A DNA stretch of 44,026 bases from the NCBI GenBank assembly GCA_023261505.1, contig JAHFOV010000011.1, positions 1 to 44,026 of the forward strand. Direction: 5' to 3'. A program made the position numbers and the translations under genes. The stretch is from Planctomycetota bacterium. Its GTDB lineage: Bacteria; Planctomycetota; Brocadiia; Brocadiales; Bathyanammoxibiaceae. Shown here one piece after another: positions 15,838 through 41,618 of this stretch (position 1 is the stretch's first letter; the number at the start of each line of letters is the position of its first letter). The notes beneath the pieces were generated by a model. It had not been told where the DNA came from. It made no database searches and saw only the letters and a list, made by a program, of their open reading frames with translations.

Positions 15838-15865
15838 GTAGGGGCACGTTGCAACGTGCCCCTAC
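15838..15865. repeat. Perfect 28-base GTAGGGGC palindrome
   Basis: GTAGGGGCACGTTG followed by its exact reverse complement. It fills almost the entire gap between lysA and the siroheme gene and touches the latter's ATG. It has the same length and ends as the copy inside the HdrED-like gene at 22263-22290. Confidence 0.9.
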
Positions 15866-21148: not shown

Positions 21149-21160
21149 GCCCAATTCAAA

Positions 21161-21186
21161 GGGGCACGGCGGCGCCGTGCCCCTAC
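21161..21186. repeat. GGGGCACGGC palindrome between dsrH and second tusA
   Basis: GGGGCACGGC-GGC-GCCGTGCCCC then TAC. It is close in sequence to the copy inserted in tsaD (26524-26547) and belongs to the GTAGGGGC family. Confidence 0.85.
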
Positions 21187-21482: not shown

Positions 21483-21631
21483 GTCATTGCGCGGGGCATT
21501 GTAGGGGCAGACCTGTGTGTCTGCCCATAATGGTTGAAAGGCAAGTACCCACCAGTCATTGCGAGGGGAGAAGCCCCGAAGCAATCCCATTTCTATGCTG
21601 TGAGATTGCTTCGCTTCGCTCGCAATGACAT
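21483..21631. repeat. Nested dispersed repeats upstream of the HdrED-like gene
   Basis: Two elements are interleaved. A GTAGGGGCAGAC...GTCTGCCC palindrome (about 21501-21526) sits in a truncated CGTCATTGCGCGGGG unit. A fuller GTCATTGCGAGGGGAGAAG...GCTTCGCTCGCAATGAC inverted repeat lies at 21555-21629. The latter is a widespread dispersed-repeat pattern in bacterial genomes. The Shine-Dalgarno of the next gene follows 10 bases later. Confidence 0.8.
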
Positions 21632-21655: not shown

Positions 21656-23719
21656 GTGGAATATCCACAGTATTTCTCATATGTAGAAATCTTAGCCCTC
21701 TTTATATTCTACCTGGGCATTTGGGCTAACCTGGCCTTCTGGCTCAAAGGGGGGCTCTCCAGGACAAAGGAAGGGACAGGTAGGGAGAAGCTCGTTTATC
21801 TCTTTAACACCCCTTTCAGAACTATATTTCGCAGGGATTTCCTCAAGCTATTATCTCTTGATATCCTCTTTCAAAGAACCCTCACAAAAGAAGACCCTAC
21901 CCGCTGGCCCATGCACTTTCCCCTGTTTCTAGGTTTCTGTGTACTCTATTTTGTGGGGAGCGTGGGAGACCAGCTGGCCCACTGGGGTTGGGTGGAGCTG
22001 GATAAAGACACCAAATGGTTTGCCTTTACTAATGACCTGGCTGGGCTTATCCTCTTGGTGGGTCTGCTACTGGCCCTTCATCGTCGCTACGTACTCAAGC
22101 TGCCATATCTAAAGACCTTTTTTGAAGATAAGGTATTAGTTTTATTGCTTCTTGTCTCTCTAGTAAGTGGTTACGTGGTAGAGGGACTTAGGCTTCTATC
22201 CATTCATAGTATTCCGGAGTCCAGAGCCTCTTTTATAGGCGTAGCATTTGCGGAGGCCTTAAGTAGGGGCGTATTGCAATACGCCCCTACAGATTTAGAC
22301 TGGGTTGCAACTCACCTTTACGTATGGTGGTTCCATGCCCTCGTCTCTCTAACCTTCTTCTGCTATATACCTTATTCCAGGCTTTTCCACCTCTTTGGTA
22401 CAAGCCTTACCCTGCTACTAAATTCTCAGAATCATAAGGCAGATTTTGTGGGGGCGGACCCTACAGGGATGGTACCCAGCTTTTCTATTAAGCAACTTAT
22501 AGAACTCTCAGGATGCACCAGGTGTGGCGAGTGCCTCAGGGTTTGTGAAACTTACAAAGACCGTGAAGTTGACCCCATTGCTCCCGCAATAAAACTTAAG
22601 GAGGCAAGGAGTCACCTCCTACACAAATATGGCCCAAACTGGGCCTCAAAACTCCTAGGGGGGCGAAACTTTTCTCAGCAAGACCTCAGCACACTATCTG
22701 AGGCCACCTTCCGCTGTACCCTTTGTGGCTATTGCACCCACGTATGTCCATCTAAGATAGACCTGCAAAGTATCTGGTATTCCCTCAGGCAAGAATACGC
22801 TACGGGGGTGGGACTCCACCCTAAAGGATTCAAACATCTCAAGGAGGGGGTAGCCAACGAAGGGAACATTTTTAACTATCCTAATGTGGATAGGGCACTT
22901 TGGGTAGATTTTGTAGAGAACCTGCCTACGGAGGGGATAAAAAAGGATAAGGCAAAGGTTATGTACTTTGTAGGCTGTGTATCCAGTTTCTCCCCCCTCG
23001 CTCAGGACATCCCCCATGCCTTTGCCTCTTTGTTAATCAAAGCTGGGGTAGACCTTACTATACTGGGCCCAGAGGAGTGCTGTTGTGGATTCCCACTCAT
23101 GGCAGCCGGGATGAAAGACCAGATGCTAGGGCTGATAGAACACAATACAAAAAAGGTAAAGGCCCTCGGGGCGGATACTATTATCTTCAACTGTCCCTCT
23201 TGTTACATGACCTGGAGGCAGGAATACTCCCCCTTCCTCCCAGGGGTATCCATGAAACACTCAACAGAATTCCTGTTGGAATTGATAAGAGATGGAAAAC
23301 TCTATCCCGGCTCGCTTAAAGGTGATACCATTAAAGTCACCTACCATGACCCCTGTGACCTCGGAAGGAATCAGGGGGTTTATGATGCCCCGAGAGAGGT
23401 CCTTCACTCTCTCCCGGGATTGGAGTTCAGGGAGAGCCGTAACCGTAAGGCCAGGGCAATTTGTTGTGGTGGAGGTGGGGTATTAGAGTCAGCAGACCCC
23501 AAGATGGCCGCAGATATATCGTACAAGACCTACAACTCCTTCTGCGAAACAGGAGCAGAGGCCCTAGTAGTAGCCTGTCCTCAGTGTAAGCGGATGTTCC
23601 AGGGGGCAAGGAAATACCTCCATGGAACAATGGAAGTTATGGACATCACCGAACTACTACTCAGGTGTCTCCAAGCTTCATCAAAGGTAAATCAGCCTAT
23701 GGCGGGACCCCGCAACTAA
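21656..23719 (+). CDS. Membrane HdrED-like protein: NarI-type cytochrome b fused to 4Fe-4S and CCG domains
   Basis: A 687-residue protein. Five hydrophobic helices (about 8-30, 85-108, 127-145, 158-180, 222-255) contain histidines (His87, His142, His227, His245) suited to b-heme, as in NarI/DsrM/HdrE. Two ferredoxin motifs follow: CTRCGECLRVC (287-297) and CTLCGYCTHVC (354-364). Two CCG domains come last: Cys441, CCCGFP (475-480), CPSC (513-516); and Cys567, ICCGGGG (602-608), CPQC (641-644). CCG domains bind noncubane or 4Fe-4S clusters that cleave disulfides in HdrB/HdrD and DsrK. The protein probably couples quinone to oxidation or reduction of a sulfur carrier disulfide or persulfide. The start is GTG with AGGAAGGA. 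It carries an in-frame palindrome at residues 203-212, and a repeat half supplies its last residues (GPRN). Confidence 0.88.
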   Translation: MEYPQYFSYVEILALFIFYLGIWANLAFWLKGGLSRTKEGTGREKLVYLFNTPFRTIFRRDFLKLLSLDILFQRTLTKEDPTRWPMHFPLFLGFCVLYFVGSVGDQLAHWGWVELDKDTKWFAFTNDLAGLILLVGLLLALHRRYVLKLPYLKTFFEDKVLVLLLLVSLVSGYVVEGLRLLSIHSIPESRASFIGVAFAEALSRGVLQYAPTDLDWVATHLYVWWFHALVSLTFFCYIPYSRLFHLFGTSLTLLLNSQNHKADFVGADPTGMVPSFSIKQLIELSGCTRCGECLRVCETYKDREVDPIAPAIKLKEARSHLLHKYGPNWASKLLGGRNFSQQDLSTLSEATFRCTLCGYCTHVCPSKIDLQSIWYSLRQEYATGVGLHPKGFKHLKEGVANEGNIFNYPNVDRALWVDFVENLPTEGIKKDKAKVMYFVGCVSSFSPLAQDIPHAFASLLIKAGVDLTILGPEECCCGFPLMAAGMKDQMLGLIEHNTKKVKALGADTIIFNCPSCYMTWRQEYSPFLPGVSMKHSTEFLLELIRDGKLYPGSLKGDTIKVTYHDPCDLGRNQGVYDAPREVLHSLPGLEFRESRNRKARAICCGGGGVLESADPKMAADISYKTYNSFCETGAEALVVACPQCKRMFQGARKYLHGTMEVMDITELLLRCLQASSKVNQPMAGPRN
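22263..22290. repeat. Perfect 28-base GTAGGGGC palindrome inside the HdrED-like gene
   Basis: GTAGGGGCGTATTG followed by its exact reverse complement, read in frame as part of SRGVLQYAPT (residues 203-212) in the loop just before the last membrane helix. Family copies between genes have the same ends and length. Confidence 0.92.
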
Positions 23720-26204: not shown

Positions 26205-27227
26205 TTATGCCACCGCCTCTACCTCCAGAGAGGCCATATCTCTCTCCAAATATTTATAATAGGCCAGGCCTGCCACTATAGCGGCATTATCCGTGCAGAG
26301 CTTGGGAGAAGGGAAGTAAGGCTGTATGTGACGTTCTTCCAGGGCCCGGGCTAGTTTCTGCCTCAATCTGGAGTTAGATGCCACTCCACCTCCTAGAGCC
26401 ACTCCCTTTACAGGATGCTTTCTCAAGGCCAGTAGGGTCTTTTCAACTAGGACGTCCACCACGGCCTCCTGGAAGCTGGCGGCCAGGTCTGCCAATTCTT
26501 TTCGTGTTAGGGGCACTGGTGTCAGGGGCACGGCGCGCCGTGCCCCTACGAGTTCCTGGTAATGATAAAGGACGGCGGTTTTTAGCCCGCTAAAGCTAAA
26601 GTCAAGAGAGCCAGGCTCAAGGTACGAGCGGGGGAAGAGTATAGCCGCAGGGCTACCTTCCCTGGCTATATTATCAATTGCTGGGCCACCTGGATAGCCC
26701 AGTCCAAGTAGTTTGGCCACCTTGTCAAAGGCCTCCCCAGCGGCATCGTCAAGGGTGGCCCCTAGCAGTTGATGTTGTGTTTCTTTATTACTTAGAAAGA
26801 GACTGGTATGCCCCCCAGAGACCACCAGGCTGAGGCATGGAAATTCCGGGGCATGACCATATTCTAGTTTAGACGCAAAGATATGGGCATGAAGGTGGTT
26901 AATCGCTATTAAAGGAAGTCTGAGTGCCCAGGCTAGGGCTTTAGCTGCAGTTACTCCTATAAGGAGTGCCCCAATGAGGCCGGGAGTGTTGGTTACAGCT
27001 ATTGCATCCAGGTCCTTAAGGGTTACTCCTGCACCCTTCAGGGCCTCATCCAGGATAGGGAGCAGGGATTCCAGATGGGCACGGCAGGCTATCTCTGGCA
27101 CTACTCCTCCGAACTTTAGATGCAGCTTCTCCTGGGTACTAACCAGGTTGGAGCGGATGCATAGTCCATCTTCTACAACAGCGACCGAAGTCTCATCACA
27201 GGAGGTCTCAATACCCAGGATTAGCAT
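26205..27227 (-). CDS. tsaD: tRNA N6-adenosine threonylcarbamoyltransferase TsaD
   Basis: Transfers the threonylcarbamoyl group to A37 of ANN-decoding tRNAs. A 340-residue ASKHA-fold protein: GIETSCDETSVAVV at the N-terminus, metal-binding HLHAH (His111, His115), VVSGGHTSL, GATLDDAAGEAFDKVAKLLG, GYPGGPAID, FSFSGLKTA, ALGGGVASN and CTDNAAI (Asp313). The partners TsaB/C/E are not in the window. Residues about 227-240 (GARRAVPLTPVPL) are foreign to the family and are encoded by an inserted palindrome (26524-26547) plus a short flank, in the variable loop before the conserved LADLAASFQEAVV helix. The first codons overlap the 3' end of ctp by 20 bases. Confidence 0.97.
   Translation of the reverse strand: MLILGIETSCDETSVAVVEDGLCIRSNLVSTQEKLHLKFGGVVPEIACRAHLESLLPILDEALKGAGVTLKDLDAIAVTNTPGLIGALLIGVTAAKALAWALRLPLIAINHLHAHIFASKLEYGHAPEFPCLSLVVSGGHTSLFLSNKETQHQLLGATLDDAAGEAFDKVAKLLGLGYPGGPAIDNIAREGSPAAILFPRSYLEPGSLDFSFSGLKTAVLYHYQELVGARRAVPLTPVPLTRKELADLAASFQEAVVDVLVEKTLLALRKHPVKGVALGGGVASNSRLRQKLARALEERHIQPYFPSPKLCTDNAAIVAGLAYYKYLERDMASLEVEAVA
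26524..26547. repeat. Perfect 24-base AGGGGCACGGCG palindrome inside tsaD
   Basis: AGGGGCACGGCG plus its exact reverse complement, followed by AC on the right (GTAGGGGC family). It is read in frame on the minus strand as GARRAVPL. GGTGTCAGGGGCA next to it adds an extra near-copy of GGGGCACTGGTG, suggesting a short duplication at the insertion. Confidence 0.9.
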
Positions 27228-41059: not shown

Positions 41060-41618
41060 ATGGGCCTTTGTTATGTTAGAGTTATGAGGTTCTGGAAACC
41101 TTTCTACGCTGCGGTGTTGACAATTAAGACACCTTGGGTAACGCCGCTTCTGTCTCCCCTTACAGATAGCGAGGGTTATAGTGTATTTTTCTCCTGGACA
41201 TCGCCTTTCTTCCCTGAACACCAATTTACCCTCGCTTCACTCTGTGCAACAACCTAAAACAAAAAACTTAAGATAAATTATTACAAGGGTTTTGTCAATG
41301 GATAGGTTTTAAGGTGTTTAATATAGGGGAGGCACTCTGCAACGTTCCCCTACTTCCAAAATTGGTAGAGAGTGATACAAAAAGCAAATTTATTGTATTT
41401 CAATAACAACTAATAAGATAAAACAAGGGTAGTGGTAGGGTAATCCCATTAAATCCCACTTTAGAAAAGGGGATTAATCTCCTTATCCTTGTTTTTACTC
41501 CAGGCAAAGTGGAGGCGTATAACTATACGCCCCTACGGCATTTTCCGTTGCATAAATCCTTTTATCTTTGTATACTTTGATTTACTAGCACTCTTAAAAG
41601 GTAAAGATTTCGACACCA
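41060..41618. other. Repeat-rich intergenic region upstream of thpR
   Basis: Apart from the in-frame extension of the mutase gene (41060-41224), this gap holds repeats only. A decayed TAGGGGAGGC...GTTCCCCTAC lies at 41324-41353. An AATCCCATTAAATCCCACTTT...AAAAGGGGATTAATC hairpin is at about 41442-41480. A decayed 28-base GTGGAGGCGTATA...TATACGCCCCTAC unit is at 41509-41536. The last two belong to families seen elsewhere in the window. No promoter is distinct. Confidence 0.6.

Follow-up and report, generated by a model that had tools for sequence, protein, structure and literature searches.

A perfect 28-bp palindrome, GTAGGGGCGTATTGCAATACGCCCCTAC, lies in frame within the gene for a fused HdrE/HdrD-like protein in the stretch of DNA that we analysed (the window, 44,026 nt), from a Planctomycetota bacterium near Brocadiales; judged by its form and its transposase association, it is a double-foot REP of a known kind, that of TnpAREP/RAYT subclass 2.4. 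We assign it to this kind because it has GTAG...CTAC feet, because subclass 2.4 transposases are present in the genome and because like palindromes sit inside the transposase genes. The full explanation, that the palindrome is a non-autonomous mobile double-foot REP mobilised through this subclass, has in our estimate a probability of about 0.87. The host gene and the element are laid out as follows.

21656–23719, plus strand: host gene, 687 aa, HdrE/HdrD-like fusion, from Pfam domains.
22263–22290, no strand assigned: double-foot REP element, in frame in the HdrE/HdrD-like gene, codons S203–T212.
22263–22274, plus strand: left 12-nt stem arm with GTAG foot, from fold prediction.
22279–22290, plus strand: right 12-nt stem arm with CTAC foot, from fold prediction.

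The element equals its own reverse complement and is translated as SRGVLQYAPT, confirming the perfect in-frame palindrome that the first-pass annotation had reported in an HdrED-like gene; about 0.0002 perfect palindromes of 28 bp are expected by chance in the window. Its predicted fold is a 12-bp stem with a 4-nt loop in which both feet are paired, and as single-stranded DNA the hairpin has a predicted energy of -13.6 kcal/mol (z -6.4). The host protein contains a NarI-like membrane domain (PF02665), a 4Fe-4S dicluster domain and a CCG cysteine-rich domain. In a low-confidence structure model (mean pLDDT 53), usable for secondary structure at most, residues 206–215 form a coil between helices 193–205 and 216–240, compatible with the earlier suggestion that the palindrome is translated in a loop before a membrane helix. 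Directly upstream of the host gene, at 21556–21628, is an inverted pair, TCATTGCGAG...CTCGCAATGA, that resembles CGTC-type REPs; in elements similar to this pair, one related genome, G005, differs from two others, G007 and G001.

The window holds four further copies.

15838–15865, no strand assigned: exact-ended intergenic copy, core CACGTTGCAACGTG, from a pattern search.
21158–21186, no strand assigned: intergenic copy with a degraded left foot, core CACGGCGGCGCCGTG.
26522–26549, no strand assigned: second intragenic copy in the window, inside the minus-strand ORF 26205–27227.
41509–41536, no strand assigned: degenerate intergenic copy.

The copy at 15838–15865 does share ends and length with the element, as had been noticed from the letters alone: it has the same 28 bp and the same 8-bp ends, with a different inner stem. 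The copy at 26522–26549 uses the other open frame and reads VGARRAVPLT. The exact-ended pattern has two matches in the window and none across 100 shuffles, and the genome holds 41 exact-ended copies against none in a backwards control; four relatives of the same family carry 93–198 such copies each, again with no control matches. Across the copies listed the outer octamer is constant, as the pattern demands, and the inner bases vary while mostly remaining palindromic.

REP means 'extragenic', yet about half of the copies here lie in predicted genes, many of them for core enzymes. The first-pass annotation had proposed counting copies genome-wide together with the fraction inside genes; for the 40 of 41 copies whose gene status was scored by a simple codon-usage gene caller purpose-written for this analysis, the outcome is 20 within predicted genes, 4 overlapping gene ends and 16 intergenic. 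Some of the intragenic 20 (L043, L046, L049, L068, L073 and L075) fall close to the end of a protein or in a weakly predicted gene, and with doubtful cases set aside the clear internal ones number nearer 13–15. Over 280 kb of G005, with near-exact copies counted, 11 of 30 copies are in genes, 2 at edges and 17 between; since the coding share of this contig is 81%, genes are still avoided, albeit far less than 'extragenic' implies. The reading frames of the 20 intragenic copies are restricted to frame 0 (the VGARRAVPL type, 11 copies) and frame 1 (the S/GRGVLQYAPT type, 9 copies), frame 2, which meets TAG, never being used (P about 0.0003). Clear host genes identified by Pfam encode LeuRS, PurH, KdsB, BioA, Pgi, MqnA, EtfA and MurD, and V-ATPase A was identified by its match to solved structures; BioA, KdsB, Pgi, PurH and V-ATPase A have extra residues at the element where solved homologue structures have shorter loops. 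An HdrE/HdrD paralogue in G007 carries three exact-ended palindromes within one open gene. Annotators should be warned that recurrent short peptides such as VGARRAVPL and RGVLQYAPT are mobile-element sequence and not domains.

That the HdrE/HdrD-like copy is an insertion is evident from its homologues. Residues R204–A210 are missing from six of the seven aligned homologues of the 687-aa protein (41–72% identity); the seventh, which has them, is an 82%-identical protein from another genus in this family and is the closest relative. An in-frame gap had been anticipated and stands, whereas the anticipated size, a clean 9–10 residues, does not: the element measures 28 bp and the net gain is 7 codons (21 bp), which suggests, from the alignment, that about 9 bp were replaced in the original loop. 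In the 82%-identical relative the DNA at the site is AGTAGGGGCGTATCGCTATACGCCCCTGTAA, the same palindrome slightly decayed, with four differences from the window copy, among them decay of the right foot and the loss of one inner base pair. Most simply, from these sequences, the insertion is ancestral, a single event that predates the divergence of the window's genus from its sister genus.

One feature of this comparison fits a native origin, in which the protein sequence is palindromic by chance or a DNA or RNA structure is selected in the HdrE/HdrD-like gene: the third codon positions of residues 203–217 are all identical between the window gene and the 82%-identical relative, the gene's only run of at least 10 identical third positions, against an overall difference of 43% at such positions (P about 0.003 for silent-site identity across the 10 element codons). 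This identity may reflect conversion, re-insertion, young age, constraint on the DNA or chance, and young age, conversion or re-insertion explain it equally well. A native segment, which the first-pass annotation would have recognised by its presence with non-palindromic codons in all homologues, is largely refuted by the six that lack it; the identical 28-mer at unrelated genome sites, and the broken inner pair and decayed foot among the relative's four differences, further count against nativeness, which we regard as highly improbable.

The genome itself encodes three transposases of the PNHxHG...WQRNYY...YI[IV]NNP type, on contigs C118 (NHFH), C14 (NHVH) and C40 (NHLH, which deviates by one residue); WQRNYY and YI[IV]NNP occur in all three. 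NCBIfam REP_Tyr_transpos was the best match for the two transposases tested, but at 68 and 57 bits they score below its cut-off of 80, which counts against the explanation. Subclass 2.4 is described as having double-foot REPs and in-frame REPs within the transposase gene, generally between HuH and Y (PMC6006769), and marks of this subclass are found here: 5' GT[AG]G and 3' C[TC]AC end one hairpin, as seen in the sequence, the 41 copies and the predicted fold, and the host has HuH transposases with NH[IFV]H, WQ and YIxNNP. Among the genes of this genome and its relatives in which HuH could be paired with a downstream WQ motif, the HuH-to-WQ linker holds an in-frame GTAG-foot palindrome in 15 of 15, double-footed in 9; the script paired HuH with WQ and not with the catalytic Y, whose motif was read by eye downstream in the translations. 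Some remoter members of the group, sampled more widely across the phylum, have no linker palindrome. Several transposases (L135, L136, L171, L172 and L174) are also flanked by REPs of their own core; the scanned flanks of others, among them L139, L143 and L178, held no same-core copy. No transposase among the genes scored, from genomes several of which are incomplete, carries or is flanked by core GTATTGCAATAC, which counts against the explanation; the cognate enzyme of this core, presumably of the same subclass, may be lost or unsampled.

Two side observations concern these genes. An array of one-footed GTAGGGGCGGACCTRTGTGTCCGCCC elements, of the canonical REP type, surrounds a transposase of this genome (G000; L073 1682–2740, contig C118), which has both one-footed and double-foot types. 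In G007 (L136/L173, contig C31) one subclass 2.4 gene that contains a palindrome of its own is interrupted by a stop codon near WQRNYY and looks broken.

That the element-carrying transposase genes are of HuH type also counts against taking the palindrome for a DDE-transposon MITE, which would have terminal inverted repeats and target duplications. Although it is short, palindromic, gene-free and multi-copy, as a MITE would be, filled and empty sites show no constant target duplication, and no DDE transposon ending in GTAGGGGC...GCCCCTAC was noticed in passing in these genomes; we consider a MITE very improbable.

Compared with the double-foot REPs of subclass 2.4 (RAYT group 4; PMC6006769), the elements share the 5' GTAG and 3' CTAC, the long hairpin, and copies that both flank the transposase gene and sit in frame inside it; unlike them, about half of the copies here are in unrelated, mostly housekeeping, genes, and we found no cognate transposase of the element's own core. 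A double foot could come from a central deletion in an inverted REP dimer (PMC6006769). GTAG REPs (PMC3733652) have in common with our elements the GTAG foot, hairpin, RAYT association and some intragenic copies (for example in O. terrae), but in their published description the GTAG at one end is left unpaired, whereas here both ends pair and the element is symmetric; a GTAG REP in the sense of Di Nocera 2013 was therefore rejected, both feet being paired in the predicted fold. REPINs likewise have two inverted GTAG ends and an assumed RAYT-dependent spread, and differ from the single 28-bp palindrome seen here.

The first-pass annotation had likened the palindrome to the Rickettsia palindromic elements (RPEs), and the likeness holds for an inserted, repeated and translated palindrome but not for the family, which is set apart by GTAG/CTAC feet and subclass 2.4 transposases. 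RPEs are also in frame in many unrelated proteins, with a different sequence, tag and host, and intragenic REPs outside Rickettsia have already been reported (PMC3733652). In-frame translation in unrelated proteins is common to both, and RPE-4 and RPE-6 of Rickettsia are equated by Di Nocera et al. with CGTC REPs; on these grounds one might suppose that an RPE or CGTC REP reached this lineage. The CGTC tag was tested and is absent, however, the ends being GTAG/CTAC, and CGTC REPs reportedly lack associated transposases, unlike the elements here; such an origin is hardly credible. A literature search with the bare string GTAGGGGC gave unrelated matches only, and the sampled open literature held no Planctomycetota host near Brocadiales, no comparably large translated share and no core exchange at shared sites.

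G001, G005 and G007 belong to one genus, with syntenic blocks 88–95% identical, and alignments around their elements contain empty sites, filled sites, nested insertions and one in-place inversion; some of the differences are, from the alignments, likely to be internal in-frame deletions. Filled/empty pairs have net length differences of 12, 15, 21, 30 and 36, and all 10 coding-site differences tallied are multiples of three, in a hand-made list in which some sites do not have a gene call in every genome. One exchanged site differs by 5 from G001 and by 6 from G007 in the automatic comparison; the alignment supports 6. We had expected insertions to be clean and to leave a fixed target duplication, and rejected this: filled/empty pairs show local replacement, and the many insertions that replace local sequence count against clean cut-and-paste. 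In G001 (L107, about 250–320, contig C310) a palindrome is split centrally by a 30-bp second insertion; at the same site G005 has no element and G007 a simple one.

Of 14 sites occupied in at least two genomes, about 7 have differing cores, for example GTATTGCAATAC vs CACGTTGCAACGTG, a figure tallied by eye on a small sample. Within the double-foot family, these differences could be conversion or template-switch tracts and not re-insertions, a question of dynamics only; core changes affect the two arms symmetrically, and the element at C9:6051 is inverted at its site, as conversion would have it. At most exchanged sites, however, flanking bases change along with the core, and element lengths are 27, 28 and 29; arm-to-arm or stem-limited conversion gives neither, which makes conversion unlikely and favours re-insertion or replacement. 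It is possible, though we hold it tentatively, that occupied loops are recurrent landing pads where REPs are exchanged, inverted or nested, and do not merely insert and decay; if so, 9–10-residue cassettes of conserved enzymes are swapped whole between close relatives. Among the congeneric genomes one site can be seen empty, filled, exchanged or nested, which brings two questions within reach of testing: the way TnpAREP places REPs, and the way small mobile palindromes lengthen protein loops.

Taken as a mobile double-foot REP, the palindrome would fold during replication into a single-strand hairpin, which a subclass 2.4 enzyme, a HuH single-strand transposase of the IS200/IS605 superfamily, would cut and join at the GTAG/CTAC feet, so that copies land elsewhere. 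Insertions into genes would mostly be lost; the survivors would be those in protein loops, in either open frame (S/GRGVLQYAPT or VGARRAVPL, the third meeting TAG), where minor gains or losses of nearby sequence bring the length change back to a multiple of three. The HdrE/HdrD-like copy would have entered before the split of genus and sister genus, replaced roughly 9 bp of loop and been kept since, presumably neutral for the enzyme.

Other repeat families are seemingly translated in frame in conserved genes of this genome as well (L058, L072, L051 and L049); peptides such as SPFNKGGKRG, LPSPIKGEGG and CHSERSEES occur, with MurD, BioA and the HdrE/HdrD paralogue among the proteins that contain them.
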